The notes under the pieces were generated by a model. It was not told the origin of the DNA. It searched no databases and was given only the letters and a program-made list of their open reading frames with translations. From assembly GCF_002007645.1 (NCBI RefSeq), contig NZ_CP019791.1, positions 868,001 through 932,000 on the forward strand: 64,000 nt of DNA, written 5' to 3'. The position numbers and the translations under genes were made by a program. This document shows, in pieces, positions 39,451 to 44,768 of this stretch. Origin of the DNA: Anaerohalosphaera lusitana (GTDB lineage Bacteria; Planctomycetota; Phycisphaerae; Sedimentisphaerales; Anaerohalosphaeraceae). Every line of letters starts with the position of its first letter. The stretch's first letter is position 1.

Positions 39451-42144
39451 TTAAAGTTCGCGTTTGACCTCTACGACTTCGAAAGATTCGAGTACATCGT
39501 CGACTTTGACGTCGTCGAAGTTTGCGATCTTGACGCCGCACTCGAGGCCGGCCTTTACTTCGCGTACATCGTCCCTGAAATGTTTGAGTGAGTCGATGGA
39601 GCATTTGTCGCGGATGACGATGTTGTTGCGGATGAGGCGGACCTTGGAATTTTTCGTAATCACGCCCGATTTGACGAAGCAGCCGGCTATCGTGCCTATG
39701 CGGCTGTGTCTGAAGGTGTCGCGGACGATGAGCGTGCCGAGAACCTTTTCTTCGTATTCAGGTTCGAGCATACCGACCATAGCGTCTTTGAGGTCCTCGG
39801 TGATGCGATAGATGATGCTGTAGAGCCGGATGTCGACGCCCTTGGATTCGGCAATGGAACGGGTTTTTTCGTCCGCGACGACGTTGAAGCCGATGATGAT
39901 GGCTTCGGAGGCTTCGGCGAGAACGACATCACCTTCAGTTATGCCGCCGACAGCAGCGTGCAGGATGTTGATCTTGACTTCGTCGGTGCTGAGCTCGCTG
40001 AGGTACTTGATGAGTACGTCGACGGAGCCTTGTACGTCGGCCTTGAGTATGAGGTTGAGTTCCTTGATGTTGCCCGCTTCGATCTGGGTGAACAGATTGT
40101 CAAGTGTGACCTGTGATCGCTGCGAGAGAGTCTTTTCGCGTTCGAGTTCGAGGTTCTGTTCGGCGGCGTTTTTGGCCTGGTTGATATCTTCGAGACAGAA
40201 GAAGCGGTCACCGGCGGTGGGTACTTCGCTCAGGCCGGAGACTTCGACTGCGTATGATGGAGTTGCAACCTTGATGTTCTTGCCGTAGGAGTCCTTGAGG
40301 GTACGAACGCGGCCGTAACCGTTGCCCGCGAGGACGACGTCGCCTTTTTTGAGCTGTCCTTCTTTTACGAGCAGTGTTGCGACTGGGCCCTGGCCGTGGC
40401 TCATCTTGGACTCGATGACCCAGCCTGTTGCGGGGATCTTGTTGTCTGCCTGGTAGTCCTTGAGCTCGGCGATGATGTCGAGGTGCTCGATGAGGTCCTC
40501 GATGCCTTCGCCGGATATTGCAGAAGTTTTGACGACTTCTGTGTCGCCGCTCCACTCGGCGGGGGTCAGGCCGTGCTCAGCTAGCTGGCCGTATACTTTG
40601 TTAACGTCGGTTCCGGGCAGGTCGATCTTGTTGAGTGCAACGATGATCTCCACGTCGGCTGCTTTGGCGTGGTGAATGGCTTCGATAGTCTGCGGCATGA
40701 GGCCGTCATCGGCAGCTACGACGAGTACGACGATGTCGGTCATGTTAGCACCGCGGGCACGCATAGCGGTGAACGCTTCGTGGCCAGGCGTATCAAGGAA
40801 GGTGATCTTTTTGCCGTTCCAGACGATCTGCGAGGCCCCGATGTGCTGAGTGATACCGCCAGCTTCGCCGGATGCGACGGAAGTGGAACGGATCTTGTCG
40901 AGCAGGCTTGTCTTACCGTGGTCGACGTGGCCGAGCATGGTGACGACAGGGGGTCTGCGTGTGACGTTTTTCTTTTCACGTTCTTCGAACTGTTTTTCGA
41001 TGAGCTCTTGTGCGCTGTGTTTGCGTTCTACGGAGAGTTCTGTGCCGAAGTCCATGGATACGAGCTGTGCAACCTCTGTTGAGATGGTCTGGTTTGCGGT
41101 AGCCATGACGCCTTGGGCCATGAGTTTTGCGATCACGTCGCCGGTCTTGACTGCGATTGCAGCGGAGAGATCCTTAACGGTGATCGGTTCGCTGACGGTT
41201 GCGTGGTCGGGTCTTTCGGCCTGGCGTTCTTCTTCGGTCTTTTTCCTTGTTTCGATCTTACGTGAAGGTTTTACGCGTGAGCCTGCACCGCTTGCGGCGG
41301 CGAGTCTGGCCTGTCGGTCGGCCATGTCCCTGGCGCGCATTCGCTTTTGTTTTTTGCGGCGCATCTGCTCTTCGGGCGTTTCAGCGGGAGTGCCTTTACC
41401 GCGTTTTTTGCTTTTCTTACCCTTGACCGGCTGGGGCTGGGAGGGCATGAGCGGTTCGGTGACCGGCTGGTCGTATCTGGGCTTGGAGGGACGGCCGGGC
41501 TTTCTGCGTCTTTTGCGTTCGGGTTCGGGCTTCTCTACACGAATGACTCTTGGACCTGAGAGCTTTGCGGGCTTTGGCTTTGAGAGCATTGGTCCCGCGG
41601 GTTTGACGGGCTCGGGCTTTGGAGGCTCGTGCATTTTTATCTTAGGCTTTTTTGGAGCCTTCTTTTCCGGGGCCGGTTTTTCTTCTGCCTTCGGTTCGGC
41701 GGGAGCCTCGGCCGCTGGTGCAGGTTCAGTTTCTGTCGGTTCGGCGGGAGCTTCTTCGGCCTGGTCAGGTTCTTCTACCTCTTCGGCAGTCGGCGCAGCT
41801 TCGGGTTCGGCGGGTGCTTCTTCTGTCGGCGCAGCTTCTTCAGGGGCCGTTTCTGTCTCGGTTGGCTTTTCGGGTTCTGCAACTACTTCGGGTTCGGTTA
41901 CAGGCGGAGCCGCTTTGGGCTTTTCTACCCGGACCTCTTTGAGGTCGACTCTTCCGGCATGTTCCACGGTTGTGGTGTGTTCACCTTCGGAGAACCACTC
42001 GCGGATGGTTGCGGCCAGGCCTACAGAAATAGTAGACATGTGGTTTTTGATGTCGAGGCCTTCTGCCTGACATTTTTCCACGATGGCCTTACTCTTTACG
42101 CCGAGTTCTTTTGCCAGATTGTGAACTCTTGTTGTTTTTGCCAA
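39451..42144 (-). CDS. infB: Translation initiation factor IF-2
   Basis: GTPase that brings fMet-tRNA to the 30S subunit, 897 aa. IF2_N-like N-terminus ([26 protein letters not shown]), a long Pro/Glu/Ala-rich linker (~70-250), then the G domain with [17 protein letters not shown] and NKIDLPG, and C-terminal beta-barrel domains. The start is TTG at 42144 with GGGAG 6 nt upstream. It follows nusA after 55 bp. Confidence 0.97.
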
Positions 42145-42199: not shown

Positions 42200-43462
42200 T
42201 TACTGCGGCAGATCTATGCCGAGGCCCGGCTCGGTGTCTTCATCTTCGTCTTCGTCTTCTGTACGGGCCTGTTCCTGTTCGAGGATATCTTCTGCCTGCT
42301 TCTTTTCGGAAGCTATTTCTTTTGCTACGTTTTCGGCGAGTTCGACTGCTTTTACGGCAGTGTCTTCGTCTACGCCGAGCTCTTCAATGAGGGGCTCTGA
42401 TCCCACTTCTTCGAGGTCCAGCACGGAAATGATGCCGAGTGCGAGGAGTTGGTCTACGAAGCTGTCGTCTACGCCTTCTATAGAAGTAACGCATTCAGCG
42501 AGTCGTTCAACCCCGGCATTGTACTCTTCAGGAGTGAGAATATCGATGTCCCAGCTAGTCAGCCTTGCAGCGAGACGGACGTTCTGGCCGTGCTTGCCGA
42601 TTGCGAGGCTGAGCTGATCCTCGGTAACTACGACGGTTGCGCGGCCCAGTTCGAAGCATATAGCGATTTCGCTGACCTCGGCGGGCTTGAGTGCGTTCGC
42701 TATGAGTGTCTGTGAAGAGTCGCTCCATCGGACGATGTCGATCTTTTCGCCTGAGAGCTCGTCTACGATGTTCCTGATGCGGCTGCCGCGTACGCCTACG
42801 CATGCGCCGACTGCGTCTACCTTGTCGTCGTGGGATTCGACGGCGATCTTGGTGCGGTAGCCGGCTTCGCGTGCGAGGGCCTTTATTTCGATAATACCCT
42901 CTGTGACCTCGGGCACTTCGAGTTCGAATAGTCTTTTGATGAAGTCAGGGTGAGTTCTTGAAAGTATGATGCGGACCTGGCTGGAGACTTCGCGGACGTC
43001 GAGGATCATGCAGCGTAGGCGTTCGCCGACGTGGTGGGTTTCGCCGCCGATCTGCTCGGATTTGGGCATGATGGCTTCGACGCGGTTGCTGAGGTCGATG
43101 ACCATTGTGCCGCCCTCGAAGCGTGCGATGGATCCGTTTACTGCTTCGCCCTTGCGTTTTACGTATTCTGCGAAGATGGATTCGCGTTCGTCGGCCTTGA
43201 GTTTCTGTATCATTACCTGCTTTGCGGTCTGGGCGGCGATGCGTCCGAACCTTTTGACGTCGAGCTTTTCGCCGTCTTTGTATGCGGTTATATTGCCGTT
43301 GTCGCGGTCGATAAAGACTTCGATCTCGGTTTCTTCGGAGGTGCTGAATGCTTTGCGCGCAGCAGAGACGAGAGCGGCTTCGAGGTCGGCAAAGATGGAC
43401 TCTTTGTCGATGTTCTTATCCCTGGCGATATTTTCGACGATCCTTATCAGTTCCTGACTCAT
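42200..43462 (-). CDS. nusA: Transcription termination/antitermination protein NusA
   Basis: RNA polymerase-associated factor for pausing, termination and antitermination. It is 420 aa from the ATG at 43462, with GAGG upstream. The frame is open 78 nt further. Order: N-terminal domain, S1 (GEAVNGSIARFEGGTMVIDL...), two KH domains (VGACVGVRGSRIRNIVDELSGEKIDIV; LAIGKHGQNVRLAARLTSWDIDI), then a helix-hairpin region and an acidic tail (EDEDEDEDTEPG). rimP, often upstream, is absent. Instead there is a ~330-nt structured leader. Confidence 0.95.
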   Translation of the reverse strand: MSQELIRIVENIARDKNIDKESIFADLEAALVSAARKAFSTSEETEIEVFIDRDNGNITAYKDGEKLDVKRFGRIAAQTAKQVMIQKLKADERESIFAEYVKRKGEAVNGSIARFEGGTMVIDLSNRVEAIMPKSEQIGGETHHVGERLRCMILDVREVSSQVRIILSRTHPDFIKRLFELEVPEVTEGIIEIKALAREAGYRTKIAVESHDDKVDAVGACVGVRGSRIRNIVDELSGEKIDIVRWSDSSQTLIANALKPAEVSEIAICFELGRATVVVTEDQLSLAIGKHGQNVRLAARLTSWDIDILTPEEYNAGVERLAECVTSIEGVDDSFVDQLLALGIISVLDLEEVGSEPLIEELGVDEDTAVKAVELAENVAKEIASEKKQAEDILEQEQARTEDEDEDEDTEPGLGIDLPQ

Positions 43463-43485
43463 ATTATCTTTTACCTCATGGTTAA

Positions 43486-43519
43486 AATAAAAAAAGTGGA
43501 AACATTCAGGTTCCCACTT
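43486..43519 (-). terminator. Hairpin and T-run in the nusA leader (attenuator-like)
   Basis: Minus-strand arms AAGTGGGAAC / GTTTCCACTT with a CTGAAT loop followed by TTTTTTT, about 25 bp before the nusA ATG and downstream of the only strong promoter. As placed, it would stop leader transcripts unless overcome. It overlaps the end of an 18-codon mini-ORF (43506-43562). Confidence 0.72.
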
Positions 43520-43815
43520 CCAAGAACTGCACCATTCCACCGACGGTGCAGAGGCCGAGCATGTTTTTCTTATCGCTTAACGGGCCATTTTATATGCCTT
43601 TCCACGACAGAAACAACAAGACTCGAGGTCCCTGAATATCCTCGCCTTGACGGCATGGCCGCCATGGGCAACGTTCAAAAGCGCGCAACAGTTGTGACAA
43701 GCAAACTTATGCACGACTGAAAATTCCTACTTTCTTCATCTTTCGCGTTCCTCTCTTGACGAGTACAAAAGTCGAAAGCTGCGGCAATCCAGTATGGGCG
43801 CAGCTTCCAAAAGCA
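43520..43815 (-). promoter_or_regulatory. Structured 5' leader of nusA operon
   Basis: About 300 nt between promoter and nusA with no real gene. On the minus strand it has hairpins GGAAGCTGCG...CGCAGCTTTC near the 5' end and CTGCACC...GGTGCAG (43527-43551). Mini-ORFs are present at 43707-43739 (MKKVGIFSRA, GAGAGG 10 nt upstream) and 43506-43562. No tRNA or known riboswitch was recognised. Confidence 0.5.
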
Positions 43816-43821
43816 ATCCGC

Positions 43822-43849
43822 ATTATAACGCAAGTGTCTTGCGTGTCAA
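43822..43849 (-). promoter_or_regulatory. nusA operon promoter with internal palindromic operator
   Basis: On the minus strand TTGACA (43844-43849), 16 bp, TATAAT (43822-43827): both hexamers are consensus. The spacer is almost exactly a perfect 7-bp inverted repeat ACGCAAG-TGT-CTTGCGT (43828-43844), a candidate repressor site. Confidence 0.8.
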
Positions 43850-43988: not shown

Positions 43989-44768
43989 TTACGAACGATT
44001 GGAGGGGGTGGTTCGTTTTTTGTTGTCGGCGGCGAGGGCGGGGTCGGAATCGGCCTTGTACGGGTCGAATTCAAGCTGCATCTGCTGATCTGCGATGTCG
44101 GTTTTGAGCAGGCGGACCATGTAGTCATCATGGCTGGGCCAGCAGGGTTCGATGGGCTTGTTGTCGAGCAGAGCGTCGGCGATGTCGGTGAGCCATGCTT
44201 CTTCTGGGCCGAGGTCGGTGGATTCAAGCTGTTTTTTTATCATTCCGGATGCGAATTTGCGGGCGAGGGGGGTTATGTTTACCATTCCGGCCTTGACGCT
44301 TTCGACGTTGAGGGTCAGCAGGCCCTCGTCGTCCACGCGGGGTTTGCTTAATATGGATATCATGACGGGGACTTTGCCGATCTGTACGGGGGCCATGAGT
44401 GTGACCTGGCCCGGTTCGAAGAGGACGGCTGGGGTGGATATCTGAGCGCCGTCCAGCTCGATGGGCCATTTGAAGCCGAGCTGGGATTCGTTTGCGATGA
44501 CGTCGTTGATATTTTTCTGCTGGACGATGAGCTCGAACGGCTTGCCGTTCTGGACGCTGTTGTACCAGGTTTCGGCGATGTCGTGGGTGAGGAATGTGCT
44601 GACGCGTTCGGTTCGGCGGGGCGGGGCAGGTTCGTATTTGTCGCTCTGCCAGGTAAGTAAAAGGAAGCCGGAGGCGGATGCGATCACCAGGAGCAGGACA
44701 GCGATGAAGCTGTACCGCAGGATGGGGTGTTTGCGTTGTTTTGGTGCTGGTTTGGTTTGCGAGCTCAA
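43989..44768 (-). CDS. Membrane-anchored protein, possibly YpmS-like
   Basis: 259 aa. One N-terminal membrane helix (YSFIAVLLLVIASASGFLLLTW, ~19-40), then an extracytoplasmic beta-rich region (IELDGAQISTPAVLFEPGQVTLMAPVQIGKVPVMISILSKPRVDDEGLLTLNVESVKAG). The pattern resembles lipid-binding proteins of the YpmS/DUF2140 or LmeA kind, but this is a loose match. The function is unknown. It is divergent from pyrF. Confidence 0.5.
   Translation of the reverse strand: MSSQTKPAPKQRKHPILRYSFIAVLLLVIASASGFLLLTWQSDKYEPAPPRRTERVSTFLTHDIAETWYNSVQNGKPFELIVQQKNINDVIANESQLGFKWPIELDGAQISTPAVLFEPGQVTLMAPVQIGKVPVMISILSKPRVDDEGLLTLNVESVKAGMVNITPLARKFASGMIKKQLESTDLGPEEAWLTDIADALLDNKPIEPCWPSHDDYMVRLLKTDIADQQMQLEFDPYKADSDPALAADNKKRTTPSNRS

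Follow-up and report, generated by a model that had tools for sequence, protein, structure and literature searches.

NusA and IF2 share one operon in many bacteria, and control of this operon is known mainly from E. coli. In the trp and tna attenuators, a short leader open reading frame (ORF) is combined with mutually exclusive antiterminator and terminator structures, and the position of the ribosome is the input. The nusA-infB operon of Anaerohalosphaera lusitana (NZ_CP019791.1, positions 868,001-932,000; this 64,000-nt stretch is the window, and coordinates count from its start) is preceded by a leader in which three overlapping mini-ORFs run towards a transcription terminator. Judged from sequence comparison, this leader could be a translation-coupled transcription attenuator of the operon, which we rate just short of an even chance. 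A terminator hairpin before rimP-nusA-infB operons has been described as the rimP-leader (Naville & Gautheret 2010, PMC2965389), and the passages of that report on this motif propose that NusA binds its stem and point to autoregulation in E. coli.

Relatives of the window were compared across an order that is probably Sedimentisphaerales. NusA is present in 146 of the 161 genomes of this order, and upstream DNA was taken for 144 leaders; two NusA matches (G143 and G070) were left out because the match starts inside the protein. In the nearest set, 55 of 59 genomes have NusA, the window's own genome counted, and the window's genus is represented by its own species alone. Leaders were grouped by family (f1, which includes the window, f2, f4, f5 and f7). 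All of them come from the same few families, so the counts are not independent, and figures with one leader per genus are given where they were computed. Features lie on the minus strand unless stated otherwise. On this comparison, the anatomy of the leader (three ORFs, their overlap and the terminator) appears well supported, and the antiterminator pairing has partial support from covariation with mixed controls.

The first ORF, uORF1 (43707..43739), encodes the peptide MKKVGIFSRA and ends in TAA in the window and in TAG in most relatives. Across the order it is a conserved peptide of about 11 residues. The first 54 leaders gave the f1 form, roughly M-x3-G-x2-S-R-A-x-A/V-stop, and the f7 form is M-x-L-T-G-L-A-N-S/R-A-x-stop. 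The pattern occurs in 115 of the 144 leaders (32 of them named by hand) and in 64 of 80 genera. A strict version is matched by 82 of the 144 where shuffles expect 0.9 in all, with 35 among the first 54 leaders (0.2 expected) and 47 among 90 further leaders (0.7 expected) whose upstream DNA was still unviewed when the pattern was written. When whole genomes are searched, the uORF1 motif is matched in 26 of the 161 and its reversed control in none. Twenty-five of these 26 sites precede nusA, and the remaining one, in G076, is the same leader at a contig end. This second leader copy (L268, on contig C429 of G076) stands beside another gene and is perhaps on a foreign contig in the assembly. Separately, three identical 17-mers, GGAGGTGTCGAATGTAG, occur elsewhere in the genome, at 2618609, 2692508 and 2971903 of G000 (L262-L264); they are possibly a repeat, and the pattern count behind them is close to that of the reversed control (4 versus 5).

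In 29 f7 leaders (one per genus, with 11 residues each), the third codon positions of uORF1 are the most variable at residues 3, 4, 5, 6, 7 and 10. This excess over first and second positions suggests that the peptide is translated in f7. Residues 8 and 9 (AAC-AGT/CGT) have no third-position excess and coincide with the GTG of ORF2. The uORF1 stop is TAG in 30 of 32 f1, 12 of 12 f2 and 41 of 63 f7 leaders, compared with 12 of 41 long ORFs in the window.

ORF2 (43577..43714; 45 codons) starts at a GTG that overlaps the end of uORF1, and it is a GTG frame of mostly 35-60 codons across the order. Counted from this GTG (rarely ATG), the uORF1 stop ends 8, 11 or 14 nt further on in 94 of the 100 leaders scored. 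Of the 115 leaders with uORF1, three are without a GTG or ATG in the right frame. In the other 112 the ORF2 frame is open over 90 nt in 110, versus 29.8 expected from shuffles and 36 for the other free frame, and with one leader per genus it is open in 60 of 61. Early ORF2 stops are seen in L085 and L088. Some ORF2 amino acids are common to clades, and several f7 leaders appear by eye to read the conserved RNA in another frame that is still open. Since the frame differs between leaders yet stays open, translation of ORF2, rather than its product, seems to be what is kept.

The third ORF is minimal. In the window, uORF3 reads ATG GCC CGT TAA (M-A-R-stop; 43577..43588) and is preceded by a Shine-Dalgarno (SD)-like GGAAAGG (43597..43603). 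An SD-ATG-(0-3 codons)-stop arrangement is present within 140 nt before the terminator in 125 of the 132 leaders that have a recognized terminator and enough upstream DNA, where shuffling expects 12.8. Counting only the first locus of each genus, 68 of 75 have it (7.3 expected). The triplet after the uORF3 AUG in f7 is TAG in 56 leaders, TAA in 11, TGA in three and another triplet in one (n = 71). An SD-like 5-mer precedes uORF3 in 29 of 31 f1, 11 of 11 f2 and 69 of 71 f7 leaders, counted after pre-selection of uORF3s for an SD-like 4-mer. ORF2 and uORF3 share their stop in 74 of 100 leaders. In a further 20, ORF2 stops elsewhere within -6..+30 of the uORF3 AUG and uORF3 retains its own stop; 18 of these ORF2 stops are out of frame with uORF3, TAATG, TGATG and ATGA being frequent forms, and two are in frame directly before the AUG. 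At lower-identity nusA loci, assumed to lie outside the order, the SD-ATG-short-stop arrangement occurs in 10 of 67 (4.4 expected), and a GGAGG-type AUG-stop in one of 67 (0.2 expected), with no clear case among them.

Dinucleotide shuffles of the leader give less stable folds than the leader itself (z = -4.26; 0 of 100 as good), and by its sequence the leader contains an intrinsic terminator before the first gene (43489..43521; hairpin 43521..43492, seven-T run 43495..43489). A terminator-like hairpin, taken as a broad pattern, precedes nusA in 133 of the 144 leaders. The window stem is AAGTGGGAA..TTTCCACTT with the core AAGTGG..CCACTT, and in the f1 and f7 alignments the terminator core is nearly constant. 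The median gap from terminator start to nusA is 69 nt. RNAalifold applied to 57 f7 leaders gave the terminator only. GTGGG..CCCAC forms are found in some distant planctomycetes, and a hairpin (A)GTGGG..CCC(A/G)CTTTTTTT also lies upstream of nusA in L257 and L258 (titled Candidatus Auribacterota and 'bacterium'). The sequence-only reading had described a structured, attenuator-like leader with a hairpin and T7 just upstream of nusA, and the conservation of the terminator in relatives bears this out.

ORF2 carries the 5' arm of a candidate antiterminator. In the window this arm is GGATATTCAGG (43631..43641; family consensus CTTCAGG), and its partner CCTGAATGTTT (43500..43510) spans the terminator loop and 3' arm. 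One pair of the window's arm is altered on both sides relative to the consensus (A-U for C-G). The element of ORF2 that is able to pair with the terminator is TTCAGG in the window and GUUUCUGCUUC in f7. In f1, the CUUCAGG of ORF2 lies opposite the CCUGAAG of the terminator loop; 96.3% of cells are paired, and in the window and L024 both sides have changed. In f7 the full 5' arm of the terminator could pair with the ORF2 arm, in a nested arrangement with the uORF3 stem and a small AUG-UAG hairpin. In an f7 alignment of 45 of the 71 leaders, picked by eye for a recognizable arm and stem so that the pairing counts lean towards the structure, this conformer has 90.9% of cells paired (42-48% when slid), a covariation score of 0.147 (0.042-0.092 when slid, and lower in shuffles too) and 19 double-change cells (8.4 ± 2.6 in shuffles, 0 of 500 as high).

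A narrow-segment partner test was made with 30 of the 31 f1 leaders (L026 is without the arm) and 61 of the 71 f7 leaders. Permuting partners among genera matches the strength of the f7 inner stem around uORF3 in 0 of 2000 cases and that of the second f1 helix in 16 of 2000, so both do better with their true partners; the f1 loop helix is marginal (66 of 2000). These p-values come after a failed wide-segment test, with the segments narrowed in between, and include a few f1 rows (L023, L029 and L053) that were kept with the anchor word misplaced. One f1 leader, L090 (G144), has changes in the antiterminator arm as well as in the terminator loop, as if the pair had been lost jointly, and others in its genus keep both.

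Ribosomes placed in silico change the predicted fold. When ORF2 is blocked, the terminator probability exceeds 0.5 in 30 of 30 f1 and 58 of 58 f7 leaders, and in the window it rises from 0.00 to 0.68. With one ribosome on uORF3 and another queued behind it, the window gives 0.62.

On these grounds the three ORFs are very probably translated, and the leader probably acts as an attenuation switch. Ribosomes would start at uORF1, end at its mostly UAG stop within the start region of ORF2, enter ORF2 through the overlapping GTG and finish at uORF3 near the terminator. An ORF2 occupied by ribosomes would have its arm covered, and the terminator could then form. When translation initiation is weak, the arm would be free, the antiterminator could form and nusA-infB would be transcribed. 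We infer both the sign and the signal of such a switch, and rate the chances that translation favors termination as even. Because the operon encodes IF2, a loop that responds to initiation capacity would be attractive, and it could adjust the amounts of IF2 and NusA to the capacity for translation. We give low odds to IF2 or initiation capacity being what is sensed.

Several results weigh against a translation-coupled switch. Under the criteria used, 29 of the 144 leaders are without uORF1, which is found in just two of five f4 and four of ten f5 leaders. In f1 the third positions of uORF1 codons show no clear excess of variation, and ORF2 ends elsewhere in six of 100 leaders. Slid controls give 13-21 double-change cells in f7, matching the 19 of the structure, and 9-19 in f1 versus 17. 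Double-change pairs in f1 number five, with 243 of 500 shuffles as high, and its further pair types are reached in 400 of 500 shuffles; as a whole, the f1 structure is just modestly above its controls. Because the slid controls in both families leave weaker support than first judged, the odds of a switch, and of the reading as a whole, are reduced. The wide-segment cognate-pair test finds no advantage for the terminator pairing (the median fraction of non-cognates as good is 0.42 in f1, 0.50 in f7 and 0.25 in f2). The core arms barely vary, so covariation there is thin, and the second helix of the window is weak (-6.0 kcal/mol). Blocking ORF2 is a weak test, since a long upstream block favors any local hairpin. 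A single ribosome on uORF3 leaves the f1 and f7 terminator counts unchanged, and one at the uORF1 stop gives 0.92 in the window, a misfit with simple trp-like logic. Free RNA already favors the terminator in 24 of 30 f1 and 41 of 58 f7 leaders, which makes the window (0.00) atypical.

If translation is sensed, the AUG-stop at the end of ORF2 might be the sensor. Through its SD-AUG-stop the operon would gauge initiation capacity directly, by initiation events with next to no peptide product. A terminating ribosome would be parked there with AUG in its P site, poised for repeated futile initiation. IF2, initiator tRNA and release factor would set the length of its stay, and the antiterminator arm would be covered by ribosomes waiting on ORF2 behind uORF3. 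We regard this version as rather unlikely. An explanation that dispenses with switching by ribosomes, and that we also consider on the improbable side, is NusA feedback on the hairpin alone, in which NusA binds the stem and stimulates termination, and the ORFs merely hold ribosomes near RNA polymerase. The hairpin found before nusA in nearly all leaders of the order and at some distant loci is consistent with such feedback, as are the rimP-leader proposal and E. coli autoregulation in the relevant passages of PMC2965389. By itself, however, this feedback leaves the pairing evidence, the overlap of three ORFs and the near-constant uORF3 unexplained.

The uORF1 peptide suggests another input. 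Arrest at the end of uORF1, with RF1, an antibiotic or a peptide-dependent stall as the signal, would block the ORF2 start, leave ORF2 untranslated and allow the antiterminator to form. The breadth of the peptide pattern across genera, with its NSRA or SRAxA end, fits a nascent-peptide or release-factor sensor of this kind, and so do the bias of the uORF1 stops to UAG and the narrow spacing between that stop and the ORF2 GTG. However, the pattern is missing from the 29 leaders noted above, and a conserved AGGA and GTG within uORF1 may serve ORF2 initiation instead. Moreover, with the uORF1 stop covered, the terminator probability stays above 0.5 in 27 of 30 f1 and 42 of 58 f7 leaders and rises to 0.92 in the window. 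We think such a sensor at uORF1 unlikely.

Two further explanations fare worse. An upstream ORF on the same strand as nusA (43989..44768) raises the idea of a plain terminator that ends read-through from this gene, with the nusA promoter after the terminator, but the leaders of f1 and f2 have a consensus promoter ahead of them, the distance from terminator to nusA is short and no promoter-like site is listed between the two in the window, so this is very improbable. That ORF2 encodes a functional small protein is the most doubtful of all, for despite the residues common to some clades, L060, L127, L134 and L142 appear by eye to use another open frame on the same RNA, and the window's ORF2 has a best match of E = 0.0087, with stops inside, in 58 other genomes and no Pfam match. 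A specific candidate of this kind, the 45-residue product as a zinc-ribbon protein (CHNC..CCFC), was rejected on the same match and the same absence of a Pfam domain.

Transcription of the leader would begin at a sigma-70-type promoter, TTGACA-N16-TATAAT (43822..43849), that has 12 of 12 consensus bases. TTGACN-N15-18-TATAAT is found upstream of uORF1 in 29 of 31 f1 and 12 of 12 f2 leaders, but in five of 63 f7 leaders. The sequence-only reading had noticed this promoter and, in its spacer, a perfect palindrome, ACGCAAG-TGT-CTTGCGT (43828..43844, unstranded), whose outer A is the final A of the -35 box; both are present. Its proposal that the palindrome is a repressor site is not supported by the comparison. 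The spacer sequence has no conservation across the 31 family leaders, and a spacer arm of at least 7 occurs in one of the 64 recognized promoters upstream of nusA in the order, that of the window. Such an arm arises in five of 20,000 shuffles of the window's spacer and, when all 64 promoters are shuffled as a set, in five of 300 sets, although this uncommon palindrome was singled out after the fact. The suggested genome-wide search finds the palindrome once in the window's genome, and with up to two mismatches there are 10 sites versus 13 for a reversed-pattern control, which indicates no regulon. With one species of the window's genus in the comparison, the palindrome is unsupported as an operator, and is probably incidental, though unexplained. 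Comparison with the nusA leaders of relatives, also suggested by that reading, retains the leader and its terminator and sets the palindrome aside.

An 18-codon mini-ORF noted earlier (MLGLCTVGGMVQFLEVGT) exists and ends in the hairpin, but it is not among the conserved ORFs. An ATG ORF of 8-25 codons ending in the hairpin occurs in only five of 31 family leaders, every sequence different, and it was rejected as a conserved element. At about 43806..43770, after the start region, the window has an additional hairpin, GC-rich and some 38 nt long, opposite gaps in the rest of the family alignment. Two f4 leaders, L074 and L075, are without uORF1 and have, further upstream, another hairpin of terminator type that carries a T-run. 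The window contains no Rfam family at the gathering threshold. Under lax settings the leader matches L20_leader (E = 1.4) and snoZ159 (E = 4.8), each well short of the cut-off, and no rimP-leader-type family appears there at E up to 5. A T-box, a riboswitch or another Rfam leader was rejected, as no covariance model matches at that threshold.

Downstream of the leader, nusA (42200..43462) encodes 420 amino acids from a likely ATG at 43462, and the next gene, infB (39451..42144), encodes IF2 with the domains IF-2, IF2_N and GTP_EFTU. A GTG in frame 78 nt upstream of the nusA ATG (43540..43463) opens a frame that is stop-free through the terminator. It is an unlikely start, because NusA alignments of relatives begin at the ATG at 43462, and automatic annotation from this GTG may produce a false 26-residue NusA extension. 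The lack of a tRNA and rimP was also noted earlier. The ARAGORN scan of the window is negative for tRNA, and the window's genome as a whole yields no RimP_N match. However, RimP_N matches just 12 of 118 genomes sampled across the phylum, so the absence of rimP is common there and not special to this nusA leader.

We found no description of a nusA-infB leader with three mini-ORFs in the open-access full-text literature, which most subscription papers lie outside. The leader shares with the trp and tna attenuators a short leader ORF, candidate alternative helices and ribosome position as the proposed input. Unlike them, it has three overlapping ORFs, of which ORF2 is long, varies in amino acids between clades and ends at an AUG-stop with its own Shine-Dalgarno sequence, and we noticed no regulatory codon run. 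The rimP-leader, as characterized in the relevant passages of PMC2965389, similarly places a conserved G-rich/C-rich terminator hairpin and a T-run before the nusA-infB operon. It appears to differ in its strict GGGc..gCCC, compared with AAGTGG..CCACTT here, and candidate antiterminators and three overlapping ORFs precede the hairpin in this leader, where rimP is absent. In that report the general motif has no larger conserved element around it, and here such an element surrounds the hairpin.

The AUG-stop itself has partial counterparts. The start-stop upstream ORF of plant NIP5;1, as outlined in PMC5972666, also has an AUG followed directly by a stop upstream of the regulated gene. It acts through eukaryotic initiation and reinitiation, whereas the element here is SD-led, marks the end of a preceding ORF and has a transcription terminator nearby. 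Bacterial AUGA and AUGUGA overlaps, in the account of PMC9841429, permit restart at a stop/start overlap much like the TAATG, TGATG and ATGA of these leaders, but restart there yields the main protein and here leads to an ORF of 1-4 codons. The axe-txe minigene (PMC8708949) is likewise a bacterial two-codon mini-ORF that acts in cis; it acts on toxin translation and possibly mRNA stability, and the abstract mentions no attenuator. The ordinary part of the leader is thus a nusA-operon terminator of a known sort. The new part, as read from the alignments, is a conserved chain of three overlapping mini-ORFs that ends in a bacterial AUG-stop, together with a candidate antiterminator arm in ORF2. 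Widely kept in the order, this leader seems to tie nusA-infB transcription to ribosome traffic over the three mini-ORFs, and its AUG-stop element offers a testable way in which a cell could count initiation events.
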